Assembly: GCF_002135415.1 (NCBI RefSeq)
Contig: NZ_NEGJ01000005.1
Location: 124,001-188,000 of the forward strand
Direction of reading: 5' to 3'
DNA: 64,000 bases
From: Acinetobacter sp. ANC 3832
Lineage (GTDB): Bacteria > Pseudomonadota > Gammaproteobacteria > Pseudomonadales > Moraxellaceae
Part shown: positions 27,772 to 32,112 of the stretch, piece by piece
How positions within the stretch are numbered: the stretch's first letter is position 1
How the letters are laid out: each line of letters starts with the position of its first letter
Made by a program: the position numbers and the translations under genes
The notes under the pieces: generated by a model
What the model saw: the letters and a program-made list of their open reading frames with translations, nothing else
What the model was told of the DNA's origin: nothing
Databases searched by the model: none

Positions 27772-30620
27772 TATTTAGTCTCTCCTGATTGATCAGCTAC
27801 GATCGCAAGTGCGTCATTAACGAGCTGAGCTTGTTGTTTTGCATGTAAGTATGGTGAACCACAAGCCGGTGCCGCAGAAGCATCACGACCTGCATAGCTA
27901 ATACGAACTTGTTTACCAGATTTCATTACGCCTTCATATAAACGAGGTGCAATGAACAACCAAGCGCCTTGGTTTTTCGGTTCTTCTTGACACCAAACGA
28001 TTTCTTGAACGTTTGGATAAGTCGCAAGAACTTCTGCAATGCGTTGTTCTGGGAATGGATACAATTGTTCAACACGTACAATTGCAATGTTCAAGTTCTG
28101 TTCACGACGTTTTTCAAGTAAGTCGTAATAAACTTTACCACCACAAAGTACTAAACGTGTTACATCCGCTTTGTTGATTTGATCGACTTCATCAATCACA
28201 GTTTGGAATGTACCCGTTGCAAGTTCTTCTAAAGTAGACGTTGCAAGTTTGTGACGAAGCAATGACTTAGGTGAAGTCACGATCATTGGTTTACGAATTG
28301 GACGAATCGCTTGACGACGCATTGCATGGAAAATCTGTGCAGGCGTAGTCGGTGTGATCACTTGCATGTTGTCTTCTGCACAAAGCTGTAAGAAACGCTC
28401 TAAACGTGCTGAAGAATGCTCAGGACCTTGACCTTCAAAACCATGTGGAAGAAGCATGGTTAAACCACACACACGTTCCCATTTAGTTTCACCCGAGGCG
28501 ATAAATTGGTCAATTACAACCTGTGCACAGTTAGCGAAGTCACCGAACTGGGCTTCCCAAATTACTAAGCTTTTCGGTAAAGTCGTTGCATAACCATATT
28601 CAAATGCAAGCACAGCCATTTCTGACAACAATGAGTCATAAATTGCAGTACGTGGTTGATTTTCTTTAATATGGCAAAGCGGAATATAGACAGAACCATC
28701 TACTTGGTTATGTAATTTTGCATGACGATGTGAAAATGTACCACGACCAACATCTTCGCCTGTCAAACGAACCAAATAACCATCATCAAGGATTGTTGCA
28801 TAAGCTAAAACTTCTGCTGCACCCCAGTTCAACGGCATTTCGCCTGTTTGCATTTTCAAGCGATCATCAATCACTTTAGATACTTGACGTTGCATCACGA
28901 AGCCTTCTGGAAGCTCACGCATTTTTGTGCCAAGTTCTTTTAAACGTTCGATTGGGAAAGTAGTATCCCAAACGTCTGTATAATCGTGACCTAAGTAAGG
29001 TTTCCAATCTACAAACATCTTGTCATTTGGTTCAAGAACCAAGGCATTCGCAACGTGCTTACCCGCTTCAAGGTCAGAACGATAGTCTTCTACCATTTGA
29101 TCTGCAGCTGCACGGTCTACTATGTTTTGTTGAACCAATTGATCTGCATAAAGCGTACGTGTGGTCGCTTTTTTGCTAATCACTTGATACATCATTGGTT
29201 GAGTTGCTGCTGGTTCATCCGCTTCGTTATGACCACGGCGACGGTAGCAGAACATGTCAATCACAACATCTTTGCGGAATGTATGACGGAAATCATGTGC
29301 CAATTGCGTAACAAATAATACAGACTCAGGATCATCACCATTGACATGGAAGATCGGTGCCTGAATCATTTTTGCGATATCTGTACAGTATTCTGTAGAA
29401 CGCGCATCACGTGGATCAGATGTTGTAAAACCAACTTGGTTATTCACAACAATATGAACCGTACCACCTACTGTATAACCACGGGTTTGTGACATTTGGA
29501 AAGTTTCTTGGTTTACACCCTGACCAGCAAATGCAGCATCACCGTGAACAATGATTGGTAATACGTCATCACCACCAATGTCTTTACGACGTACTTGGCG
29601 TGCACGTACAGAACCTTCAACGACAGGTCCAACAATTTCTAAGTGTGATGGGTTAAATGCCAATGCCAAGTGAACTTCGCCACCTGGTGTCATCACATTC
29701 GATGAGAAACCTTGGTGATACTTAACGTCACCAGAGCCTTTTTTATGAATTGATTTACCTTCAAACTCACCAAACAAATCAGCTGGATTTTTACCCATGA
29801 TGTTTACAAGTAAGTTTAAACGACCACGGTGTGGCATCCCAATCACAACTTCTTTACAACCTACAGCACCTGCACGTTGAATCAGTTCGTTTACCATTGG
29901 AATGAAAGACTCACCGCCCTCTACACCAAAACGCTTCGCACCAACATATTTATTGCCGAGGAATTTCTCTAAACCTTCAGCAGCTGTTAGACGCTCTAAA
30001 ACGCTTTTCTTTTGTTCAGCAGAATAACCAAACTGACCACGTGTGCTTTCTAGGCGTTGTTGAATCCAACGTTTTTCTTTAGTGTCAACAATGTGCATAT
30101 ACTCAACACCAACCGAAGCACAATAAGTTGCTTCCATTGCATTGACCATTTCACCCAAAGTCGCTTCAGTTTTACCAATCGCAAGATTCCCTGCATTGAA
30201 AACCGTGTCTAAATCTGATTTCGTTAAACCGTGTGTAGAAAGGTCAAGATCAGGTACGTCTTCACGCTTTGCTAAACCAAGTGGATCTAATTTTGCTTTT
30301 TGATGACCACGGTTACGATAAGCAGCAATCAGTTGTAATACACCGATTTGACGACGTTCGTGTTCAGTACTAACTTCGCTTTGAACAACGGGCTGAACAC
30401 GACTTGAATTGCGACCCAACAAAAGGAATTGTTCACGGATGTTGCCGTGTGGTTGGTCACCTTTCGGAAATTTATCAAAGTACGCTCTCCAATCATCACC
30501 AACAGAAGTTGGAGAAGATAGGTATTGCTCGTAAAGCTCTTCAATATACGCTGCACTATCAGCGGAAAGTTCAGTGTCAAGACGCATTGCGTCAGCAACT
30601 TCTTGCATTTGTGGACCCAT
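27771..30620 (-). CDS. sucA: 2-oxoglutarate dehydrogenase E1
   Basis: 949 aa. The thiamine-diphosphate enzyme that decarboxylates 2-oxoglutarate. The N-terminal SucB-docking region, the [13 protein letters not shown] segment, the ThDP/Mg motif [17 protein letters not shown] and the transketolase-like [17 protein letters not shown] to [14 protein letters not shown] region are all present and full length. The first ATG lies only a base or two after an AGGA, so the ATG four codons on ([10 protein letters not shown]) may be the true start. A structured leader lies about 105 bases upstream. Confidence 0.97.
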
Positions 30621-30724
30621 TTCCTATTGCAAAAACATTACAGGATGCTTTTTAAGCACACCCATGATTGATAATGCCAAATTGGTAAAATGACATTCAC
30701 CCTTCATAGCTCTAATGACCACGG

Positions 30725-30775
30725 GGCGTTATTACACATCGGTTTTTTCCAACGTGTTCAATGAATCATAACGCC
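30725..30775 (-). promoter_or_regulatory. Candidate structured RNA element in the sucA leader
   Basis: Read on the minus strand, an outer 8-bp helix (30768-30775 with 30725-30732, GGCGTTAT/ATAACGCC) encloses an inner 8-bp helix (30749-30756 with 30735-30742, CACGTTGG/CCGATGTG, two G-T pairs) capped by six A. It lies about 105 nt before the sucA start. Position and form suggest a cis-regulatory leader; a sucA leader motif is known in related bacteria (Rfam sucA-II), but identity is not shown here. Confidence 0.5.
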
Positions 30776-31355
30776 TCCATTGGCATCATCACTCATTCAT
30801 ATACTCGGTCGAAACCGAGCAATTTTTTGCAAATCGTCTTAGAAAAAATAAATTCACGATTTAACTTTTCTAAAACGGTTTCAATCTCTATTTTATAAAC
30901 TTAAGTTGCGCATTCTTATGTTGAAAAAATGTACATTAAACAGCGACTTTTTCACATATAGATATTTGTTAAATCCTAACATGAAGTCTCGTATCAATTG
31001 ATTTTTTTGACACATACCATCCATAAATTAGCTAAATACAACTACAACTTTTTCATTTATGATGTCGCGCTGCATCTAAATTTTAGATCTACTTAATATA
31101 AAAAACATATCGATGCTTATTTCAAATAGCAAAAAAGAGCGCATTTTTCCAAACTGCCCTCTCCTCTGTGTTACATCATAACATTTTTATTCATGCTTAT
31201 GCAGACTATTCCGCAATACCAGAATATAGCTTGAACTCATATTAAACGATTCAAGCCATGTTTCATTACATAAGTAACACAACAAGAACGAATCAAACCA
31301 ATGTATAAAAGACTGATATTCAAACTAAATACATAAATACTTTTTAAGAATCCAT

Positions 31356-31391
31356 AAAAAAGAGCACATATCAAATGACATGTGCTCTTTT
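31356..31391 (-). terminator. Terminator of the sdhCDAB operon
   Basis: AAAAGAGCACAT (31358-31369) pairs with ATGTGCTCTTTT (31380-31391); a T tract follows on the minus strand, 10 bp beyond the sdhB stop. Confidence 0.9.
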
Positions 31392-31401
31392 GCGTACAGT
31401 A

Positions 31402-32112
31402 TTAACCTGCTTGGTCAAACAACATGCTACGGATGTGACCGATCGCTTTTGTTGGATTCAAACCTTTAGGACAAACTGATACACAGTTCATAATACCTTT
31501 ACAACGGAACAACGAGAACGGGTCATCAAGACGAGATAAACGATCTTGAGTTGCTGTATCACGTGAATCGATGATGAAACGGTATGCATTTAACAATGCA
31601 GATGGACCCAAGAATTTATCAGGGTTCCACCAGAACGATGGGCAAGCTGTTGAACAACATGCGCAAAGAATACATTCATACAGACCATTCAAATGATCAC
31701 GTTCTTCAGGTGACTGTAAACGTTCTTTTGGAGGAGCTGGCTGATTGTTAATCAGGAAGGGTTGGATTTTGTCATATTGATCATAGAATTGGTTCATATC
31801 AACAACCAAATCTTTAACCACTGGCAAACCAGGAAGTGGACGAATCACGATTTTTTCAGGTAAATCGTTCAAATTCCACAAACAAGCCAAACCATTTTTA
31901 CCATTAATGTTCACACCATCCGAACCACAAATACCTTCACGGCATGAACGACGGAATGTTAATGTTTCATCCTGTACTTTTAACGCAAGAAGAGCATCAA
32001 GCAACATACGGTGCTTATCAGTCAATTCAAGTTTAAAAGTTTGCATGTACGGTGCTTTATCCTTATCAGGATCATAGCGGTAGATTTCGAAAGTACGAGT
32101 GCCTCTACTCAT
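31402..32112 (-). CDS. sdhB: Succinate dehydrogenase iron-sulfur subunit
   Basis: 236 aa. The 2Fe-2S plant-type ferredoxin domain has CREGICGSDGVNINGK with the later Cys in LACLWN. The 4Fe-4S and 3Fe-4S clusters are held by CILCACCSTACPSFWW and CKGIMNCVSVCPKGLNP. It passes electrons from SdhA to the membrane quinone site. Last gene of sdhCDAB, 14 bp after sdhA. Confidence 0.98.
   Translation of the reverse strand: MSRGTRTFEIYRYDPDKDKAPYMQTFKLELTDKHRMLLDALLALKVQDETLTFRRSCREGICGSDGVNINGKNGLACLWNLNDLPEKIVIRPLPGLPVVKDLVVDMNQFYDQYDKIQPFLINNQPAPPKERLQSPEERDHLNGLYECILCACCSTACPSFWWNPDKFLGPSALLNAYRFIIDSRDTATQDRLSRLDDPFSLFRCKGIMNCVSVCPKGLNPTKAIGHIRSMLFDQAG

Follow-up and report, generated by a model that had tools for sequence, protein, structure and literature searches.

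A candidate structured leader RNA upstream of sucA in Acinetobacter

Structured leaders at sucA

2-Oxoglutarate dehydrogenase stands at a branch point of carbon and nitrogen metabolism. The gene-linked structured leaders of TCA-cycle operons include the sucA motif, which exists in Burkholderiales, the sucC motif (RF01759) and, closest to the locus considered here, sucA-II (RF01758, gathering score 70 bits). The sucA-II model covers 217 positions and begins with a long 5′ hairpin, which is followed by another hairpin and then by a branched domain with GGGGC/UCCCC as its closing stem. It shares with the leader described below its place directly upstream of sucA, a similar length, its occurrence in the order Pseudomonadales and the general combination of a 5′ hairpin with a branched domain whose closing stem lies near the ribosome site. 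A table of PMC2864571 pairs sucC with RF01759. Post-transcriptional control of sucA is also described in Enterobacteriaceae, where a small RNA derived from the glutamine synthetase transcript is reported to control the gene (PMC9731577); that regulator is, however, a small RNA acting in trans, whereas the Acinetobacter candidate is a large structure in cis. A literature search found no description of a structured sucA leader in Acinetobacter.

The window analysed is a stretch of 64,000 nt from Acinetobacter sp. ANC 3832 (GCF_002135415.1, contig NZ_NEGJ01000005.1, 124,001–188,000), and all coordinates given below are window positions. The putative sucA reading frame occupies 30620–27771 on the minus strand and is followed directly downstream by what appear to be sucB and lpd, the gene names being assigned from the sequence. 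A first-pass annotation of this DNA had proposed a compact two-helix RNA element in the sucA leader, and had suggested sucA-II as one possible identity and a sensor of the TCA cycle as a candidate function. Both helices are found on the minus strand where it had placed them (Table 1), the inner one closing an A6 loop, and the distance from 30725 to the ATG at 30620 is the 105 nt that it gave, or 117 nt if the true start is the ATG at 30608.

The suggested identity with sucA-II did not hold. No Rfam family attained its gathering score around this locus. With the cutoff relaxed to E 10, 30300–31100 yielded just four non-significant matches, all to unrelated families, with neither sucA-II nor the sucA and sucC motifs among them. 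The sucA-II model has no match in the source genome, and it matches seven of 194 Pseudomonadales genomes, all in one other family, which indicates that the model works. Conversely, R1, a covariance model built from the Acinetobacter leaders aligned below (alignment A1), has no match at any E up to 10 among the seven loci that carry sucA-II (L098–L104). Location directly upstream of sucA is shared with sucA-II and is insufficient for membership, which was rejected because the score is not reached, the order of the stems and the closing stem differ, and there is no cross-match in either direction. Instead of the sucA-II build, the Acinetobacter leader has a junction closed by helix P1 and carrying hairpins P2–P7. 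The lack of cross-matches together with the different build therefore indicates another structured leader, separate from sucA-II, in front of the same gene, a new candidate, as judged from sequence comparison, outside the Rfam library searched. Since sucA-II is present in another family of Pseudomonadales, structured leaders that are unrelated or have diverged strongly seem to occur at this one gene.

The predicted fold and its covariation

The candidate is modelled as a domain of about 206 nt (30832–30627, minus strand) upstream of sucA, a junction closed by P1 that contains P2–P7 and is preceded by the hairpin P0 (Table 1). The boundary first drawn around two helices was thus too small, as they are a fragment of this larger RNA. 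When the leader is folded over 221 nt, its energy is −77.4 kcal/mol (z −5.9, none of 200 shuffles as good).

Table 1. Predicted features of the sucA leader and its surroundings (window positions; percentages are alignment cells paired)
Feature	Position	Strand	Remarks
Terminator-like hairpin and U-run	31391–31358	−	Between sdhB and sucA; 15-bp stem, −21 kcal/mol, z −6.6
Predicted extended −10 promoter element	30982–30973	−	ATGTTAGGAT; pattern ATGNTANNAT; predicted start near 30966
P0 hairpin	30877–30835	−	Directly 5′ of the junction; MFE hairpin z −3.1, 1 of 200 shuffles as good
P1, 5′ arm	30832–30824	−	UUGCAAAAA; pairs with 30635–30627 in the 221-nt fold
P2 hairpin	30821–30802	−	99.7%; 4/8 pairs with two-sided changes (44 leaders)
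P3 hairpin	30797–30760	−	AAUGAGUGAUGAUGCC / GGCGUUAUGAUUCAUU; 97.7%; 9/15 pairs with two-sided changes (44 leaders)
Outer helix of the first-pass annotation	30775–30768 / 30732–30725	−	GGCGUUAU / AUAACGCC; may pair as an alternative, in competition with P3 and P5
P4 hairpin	30757–30734	−	Inner helix of the first-pass annotation, CACGUUGG (30756–30749) / CCGAUGUG (30742–30735); 89.7%; 8/8 pairs with two-sided changes (44 leaders)
P5 hairpin	30728–30698	−	GCCCC...GGG, length variable; overlaps the 3′ arm of the outer helix
P6 hairpin	30697–30673	−	AAUGUCA / UGGCAUU, loop around UUUUACCAAUU; 99.5%; 3/5 counted pairs with two-sided changes
P7 hairpin	30663–30642	−	GGGUGUGCUU / AAGCAUCCU; outer pairs 99.2%, inner pairs 96.6%
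P1, 3′ arm	30635–30627	−	UUUUUGCAA; one base from the Shine-Dalgarno
Shine-Dalgarno-like AGGA	30625–30622	−	Read from the sequence; invariant in 44 leaders
Probable sucA start codon	30608–30606	−	MQEVADAM...; inferred from relatives

All 99 Acinetobacter genomes sampled were matched at E ≤ 1 in a similarity search with 301 nt that covered the leader and the first part of sucA; two of the matches (G025, G032) were too weak to use, and sucA was located in the 97 loci retained. Alignment A1 comprises 44 leaders, for which L090–L097 were omitted as too divergent, near-identical sequences were thinned from 88 to 55 to 43, and L040 was added. Its common structure consists of P1, closing the whole domain, and the hairpins P2, P3, P4, P6 and P7. 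Over the 51 pairs counted (P5 excluded), 97.3% of 2243 cells are standard pairs and 26 pairs show two-sided changes. None of 500 shuffles reached any of the five measures used, and shifting one partner by 1–3 columns lowered the pairing to 36–50%. Because the counted structure was derived from the same alignment, all column pairs were also scanned without a given structure, and the largest numbers of two-sided pairs fell in P4, P3, P2 and P6, followed by the outer helix and lower P3.

Compensatory changes were also counted on a tree made from the 372 nt of sucA coding sequence after the leader. The double events number 18 in P2 (slid controls 0–3), 13 in P3 (0–4), 19 in P4 (1–4) and 6 in P6 (0–2), while the 2 in P7 (0–3) give that hairpin weak support. 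P1 shows none; it is paired in all 44 leaders with seven of its eight counted pairs invariant, and since it hardly varies, covariation speaks neither for nor against it. Folded alone, the P5 segment yields one or more hairpins in each of the 44 leaders, in a register that is not constant. A three-pair GGA/UCC hairpin is predicted over the Shine-Dalgarno; it is invariant and was omitted from the counted structure.

P0 was assessed in a separate alignment, A3, made of 36 of the 44 A1 leaders together with L090, L120 and L122. In these 39 leaders 91.5% of the cells are paired, eight of 17 pairs show two-sided changes and 0 or 1 of 500 shuffles does as well on the five measures, one pair being miscounted in these values owing to a bracket set one column off (25–55 instead of 25–56). 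Hairpins of different sequence occupy the position of P0 in the A. populi-like and Alkanindiges leaders.

Wobble cells in the counted pairing comprise 392 G-U against 22 A-C, and the pairing is therefore maintained as RNA of the minus strand. This ratio makes it highly improbable that the inverted repeats act in the DNA, as an operator or an antisense terminator, rather than as RNA structure, although P2 read on the plus strand together with a T-run (30804–30819) resembles an intrinsic terminator for antisense transcripts and the near-invariant P1 could be a DNA site.

The two helices recognised at first do form in an isolated 60-nt piece, which folds with −23.7 kcal/mol (z −5.3, none of 200 shuffles as good), and with about 88% of its cells paired the outer helix comes close to the inner one. 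In the 221-nt fold, however, the inner helix stays while the outer is lost, its GGCGUUAU arm pairing upstream with AUGAUGCC (30797–30782 / 30775–30760) to give P3, the 3′ arm of which contains the outer 5′ arm. What stands of the first reading is a structured sucA leader with an inner helix that covaries across Acinetobacter at every pair; the outer helix, with two-sided changes in two of eight pairs among the 44 leaders, is not the best-supported pairing, and the A6 loop is not conserved in the alignment. The genus-wide comparison favours P3, with 13 double events against a single one in the outer helix (slid controls 0–3), and the outer helix was rejected as the main pairing on this ground and on that of the cells paired. 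Breaks on the tree number 11 in P3 (15 pairs), 14 in P4 (eight pairs) and 15 in the outer helix (eight pairs), the latter with four restorations.

All eight pairs of the outer helix are possible in 28 of the 44 leaders and at least seven in 33, whereas at least 14 of the 15 P3 pairs are present in 40. The 11 leaders with fewer than seven outer pairs are L027, L041, L075 and L085 and a group (L045, L054, L055, L057, L072, L078, L084) that contains records named A. junii (L072) and A. higginsii (L055). The same 11 leaders retain 12–15 of the 15 pairs of P3. P3 is thus the general pairing, and the outer helix could serve as an alternative only in some Acinetobacter. The 3′ arm of the outer helix also overlaps P5, and it is very unlikely that the outer and inner helices by themselves form the functional unit.

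Distribution in Moraxellaceae

At E ≤ 0.01, R1 recognises 170 of the 175 Acinetobacter genomes searched. In a sample of the family it matches 95 of 249 genomes at E ≤ 0.1, comprising 90 Acinetobacter, three of the Alkanindiges lineage (two Alkanindiges species and one Moraxellaceae metagenome assembly) and one weak match in each of two other genera. In a sample of 244 genomes from the whole order, the only matches were that of the source genome and two regarded as chance (E 2.8e-4 and 4.8e-4), one beside an rpoD-like gene and the other within a coding region; the E-values of R1 are therefore rough. The fold is conserved, on the minus strand and placed before sucA, as it is in every strong-match locus where sucA was sought, and each genome has a single significant copy in the R1 searches.

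Several further matches were set aside. The second matches in G078 and G543 are pieces of 43–45 nt (E 0.002 and 0.007) and are weaker than the chance matches of the order-wide sample. Second matches in G082, G422, G324 and G047 (E 0.035–0.095) were taken as chance, the two examined (L125, L126) being without sucA. The match in G301 (L119, E 0.029) is not near sucA, and that in G303 (L118, E 0.023), which is upstream of sucA, is too weak to count.

Fourteen remote leaders were folded singly, without an alignment. Seven of them (L091, L094, L095, L121 and L115–L117) show P1 closing P2–P7; in L090, L092 and L122 P1 is present and the interior is changed, L096, L120 and L123 have P1 in part only, and L118 has no P1 in its best fold. 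The fold z-score is −7.6 for L115 and −4.7 for L121. A near-complete Acinetobacter genome of 2.4 Mb (G076; L097, L216) has sucA without the element, behind an AT-rich leader (20% GC) that folds weakly.

Other sucA leaders of Moraxellaceae were compared by their fold z-scores, with 60 shuffles each. Six (L211, L212, L214, L221, L223 and L226) have values of −3.4 to −5.3 and no R1 match, others are intermediate (L220 −3.4, L213 −2.7, L217–L219 about −2), and seven AT-rich leaders (L227–L233) show no strong fold (0.6 to −1.9); two sucA-II leaders gave −2.3 and −5.8 for comparison. By eye, several of the six seem to carry a P7-like GCxUUA...GGC hairpin. Among the records of the genus, one named Acinetobacter baumannii ACIN00150 (L004/L155, G047) has a leader 89% identical to that of the window, and its species name may be wrong; the leader of a record named A. 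guillouiae (L003/L152) is likewise 89% identical, and two A. pittii leaders are 83% identical.

Possible modes of control and the transcription unit

The best explanation of these observations, which on balance we consider probable, is that the leader is a cis-acting post-transcriptional control element of sucA, and through it of sucA-sucB-lpd, that would operate through P1-based ribosome loading. It most likely acts in cis on the translation of sucA, and the leader RNA probably helps control the amount of the enzyme. Transcription would start upstream of P0, at the promoter predicted below, and the leader would fold into P0 and the junction of P2–P7 closed by P1. The forming, opening or stabilising of P1 could then set the loading of the 30S subunit on sucA, a role proposed for P1 because its 3′ strand ends one base before the AGGA.

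Forbidding P1 costs about 15 kcal/mol on average over the 44 leaders. For one central pair of P1 the probability averages 0.81 in the same set, and it falls below 0.5 in five leaders, including that of the window (0.46). In the calculation, removing P1 leaves the accessibility of the Shine-Dalgarno practically unchanged (mean 0.30 with it and 0.31 without), so no built-in sequestering switch was found. The search for an anti-Shine-Dalgarno switch gave no result: pairing of the P1 U-tract with GGAAAUG is possible in 99% of cells, but it shows no two-sided change, and the accessibility stays constant. A contact of the P6 loop (ACC/AUC) with GGGU near the start codon, considered by eye, fails in several remote leaders, e.g. 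L092, and is not claimed. Among mutually exclusive structure pairs, none was found to be clearly kept by evolution, the best candidate being a change of partner by GGCGUUAU, which could pair either in P3 or in the outer helix.

One form of such control would be a metabolite riboswitch, in which the junction would bind 2-oxoglutarate, succinyl-CoA/CoA or another TCA acid and so stabilise P1 or switch GGCGUUAU; this form is well short of probable. A conserved, covarying structure of the kind expected in the mRNA leader of a riboswitch is present in what is presumably transcribed as the sucA leader. The large multi-branch fold with its closing helix adjoining the ribosome site, the fixed link to sucA, the alternative pairing of the P3 arm, complete in 28 of the 44 leaders, and the P6 loop, which by eye shows partial similarity between Acinetobacter, A. 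populi-like and Alkanindiges leaders, are all consistent with it. The restriction to one gene in a single copy and the poor record of the outer helix, with its single double event, its 15 breaks and its 11 leaders below seven pairs, argue against it. Several junction letters are conserved within Acinetobacter (A1), but in the remote relatives the invariant letters lie mostly in P1, the base of P2 and the ribosome site and not in a junction pocket, as judged from an alignment (A2) that was fitted to R1 for viewing only and is poor for the remote rows. More doubtful still is the fuller proposal of a riboswitch class, so far confined to Acinetobacter and Alkanindiges, that would sense a metabolite related to 2-oxoglutarate dehydrogenase and set the translation of SucA through P1 and perhaps through the GGCGUUAU exchange.

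Autoregulatory leaders typically combine a one-gene, single-copy distribution with helices that are better kept than loops. Both traits are seen here, the latter in the remote relatives, and they would suit a protein-binding leader through which a 2-oxoglutarate dehydrogenase subunit, Hfq or another RNA-binding protein represses or activates sucA. This form, too, is well short of probable, as no binding motif or partner was identified and, in Acinetobacter studies of Hfq and the RNA interactome (PMC12802169, PMC11472050, PMC11617691), the word sucA is absent from the main texts. The riboswitch and the protein-binding leader are about equally likely forms of the control element, and the main alternative to both is a static structural leader that senses nothing and protects the message or keeps the ribosome site clear of other pairing. 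The prediction of P1 in most leaders, the lack of a clear switch and the strongly folding sucA leaders of several other Moraxellaceae genera that R1 does not recognise are in line with a static role. So many conserved hairpins are, however, unexpected for a purely mechanical leader, and this alternative appears rather unlikely. A regulatory leader of unspecified signal is ranked first because no clear switch was found and few pocket letters are invariant in the remote relatives.

Acinetobacter includes a major hospital pathogen. If the regulatory reading is true, the leader would add a post-transcriptional layer to the control of the TCA cycle across nearly the whole genus, and the signal sensed at sucA would become a question that a laboratory strain could answer.

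The translation start is probably the ATG at 30608, because the counterpart of the ATG at 30620 is out of frame in L095, where the stretch is 2 nt shorter, and is absent in L097 and L118; in most leaders this upstream ATG is in frame. The AGGA, one base from P1, is 13 bases from the ATG at 30608, which is a long spacing.

As for the transcription unit, the terminator-like hairpin after sdhB suggests that sucA probably has its own promoter. A terminator pattern scan of the minus strand over 30600–31420 found none, and it also missed that hairpin. The promoter pattern, which was chosen after viewing the sequences, occurs in 81 of the 97 leaders at 138–162 nt before P1, most often at 147. A generic sigma-70 scan returned no promoter at 30973–30982, which is the sole conserved promoter-like site found and precedes the element as transcription would run. 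Adjoining the predicted −10 element on its upstream side, the stretch GGTATGTGTCAAAAAAATCAAT (30997–31018, minus strand) looks strongly conserved in the leaders compared and may represent a −35 region or the site of an activator.
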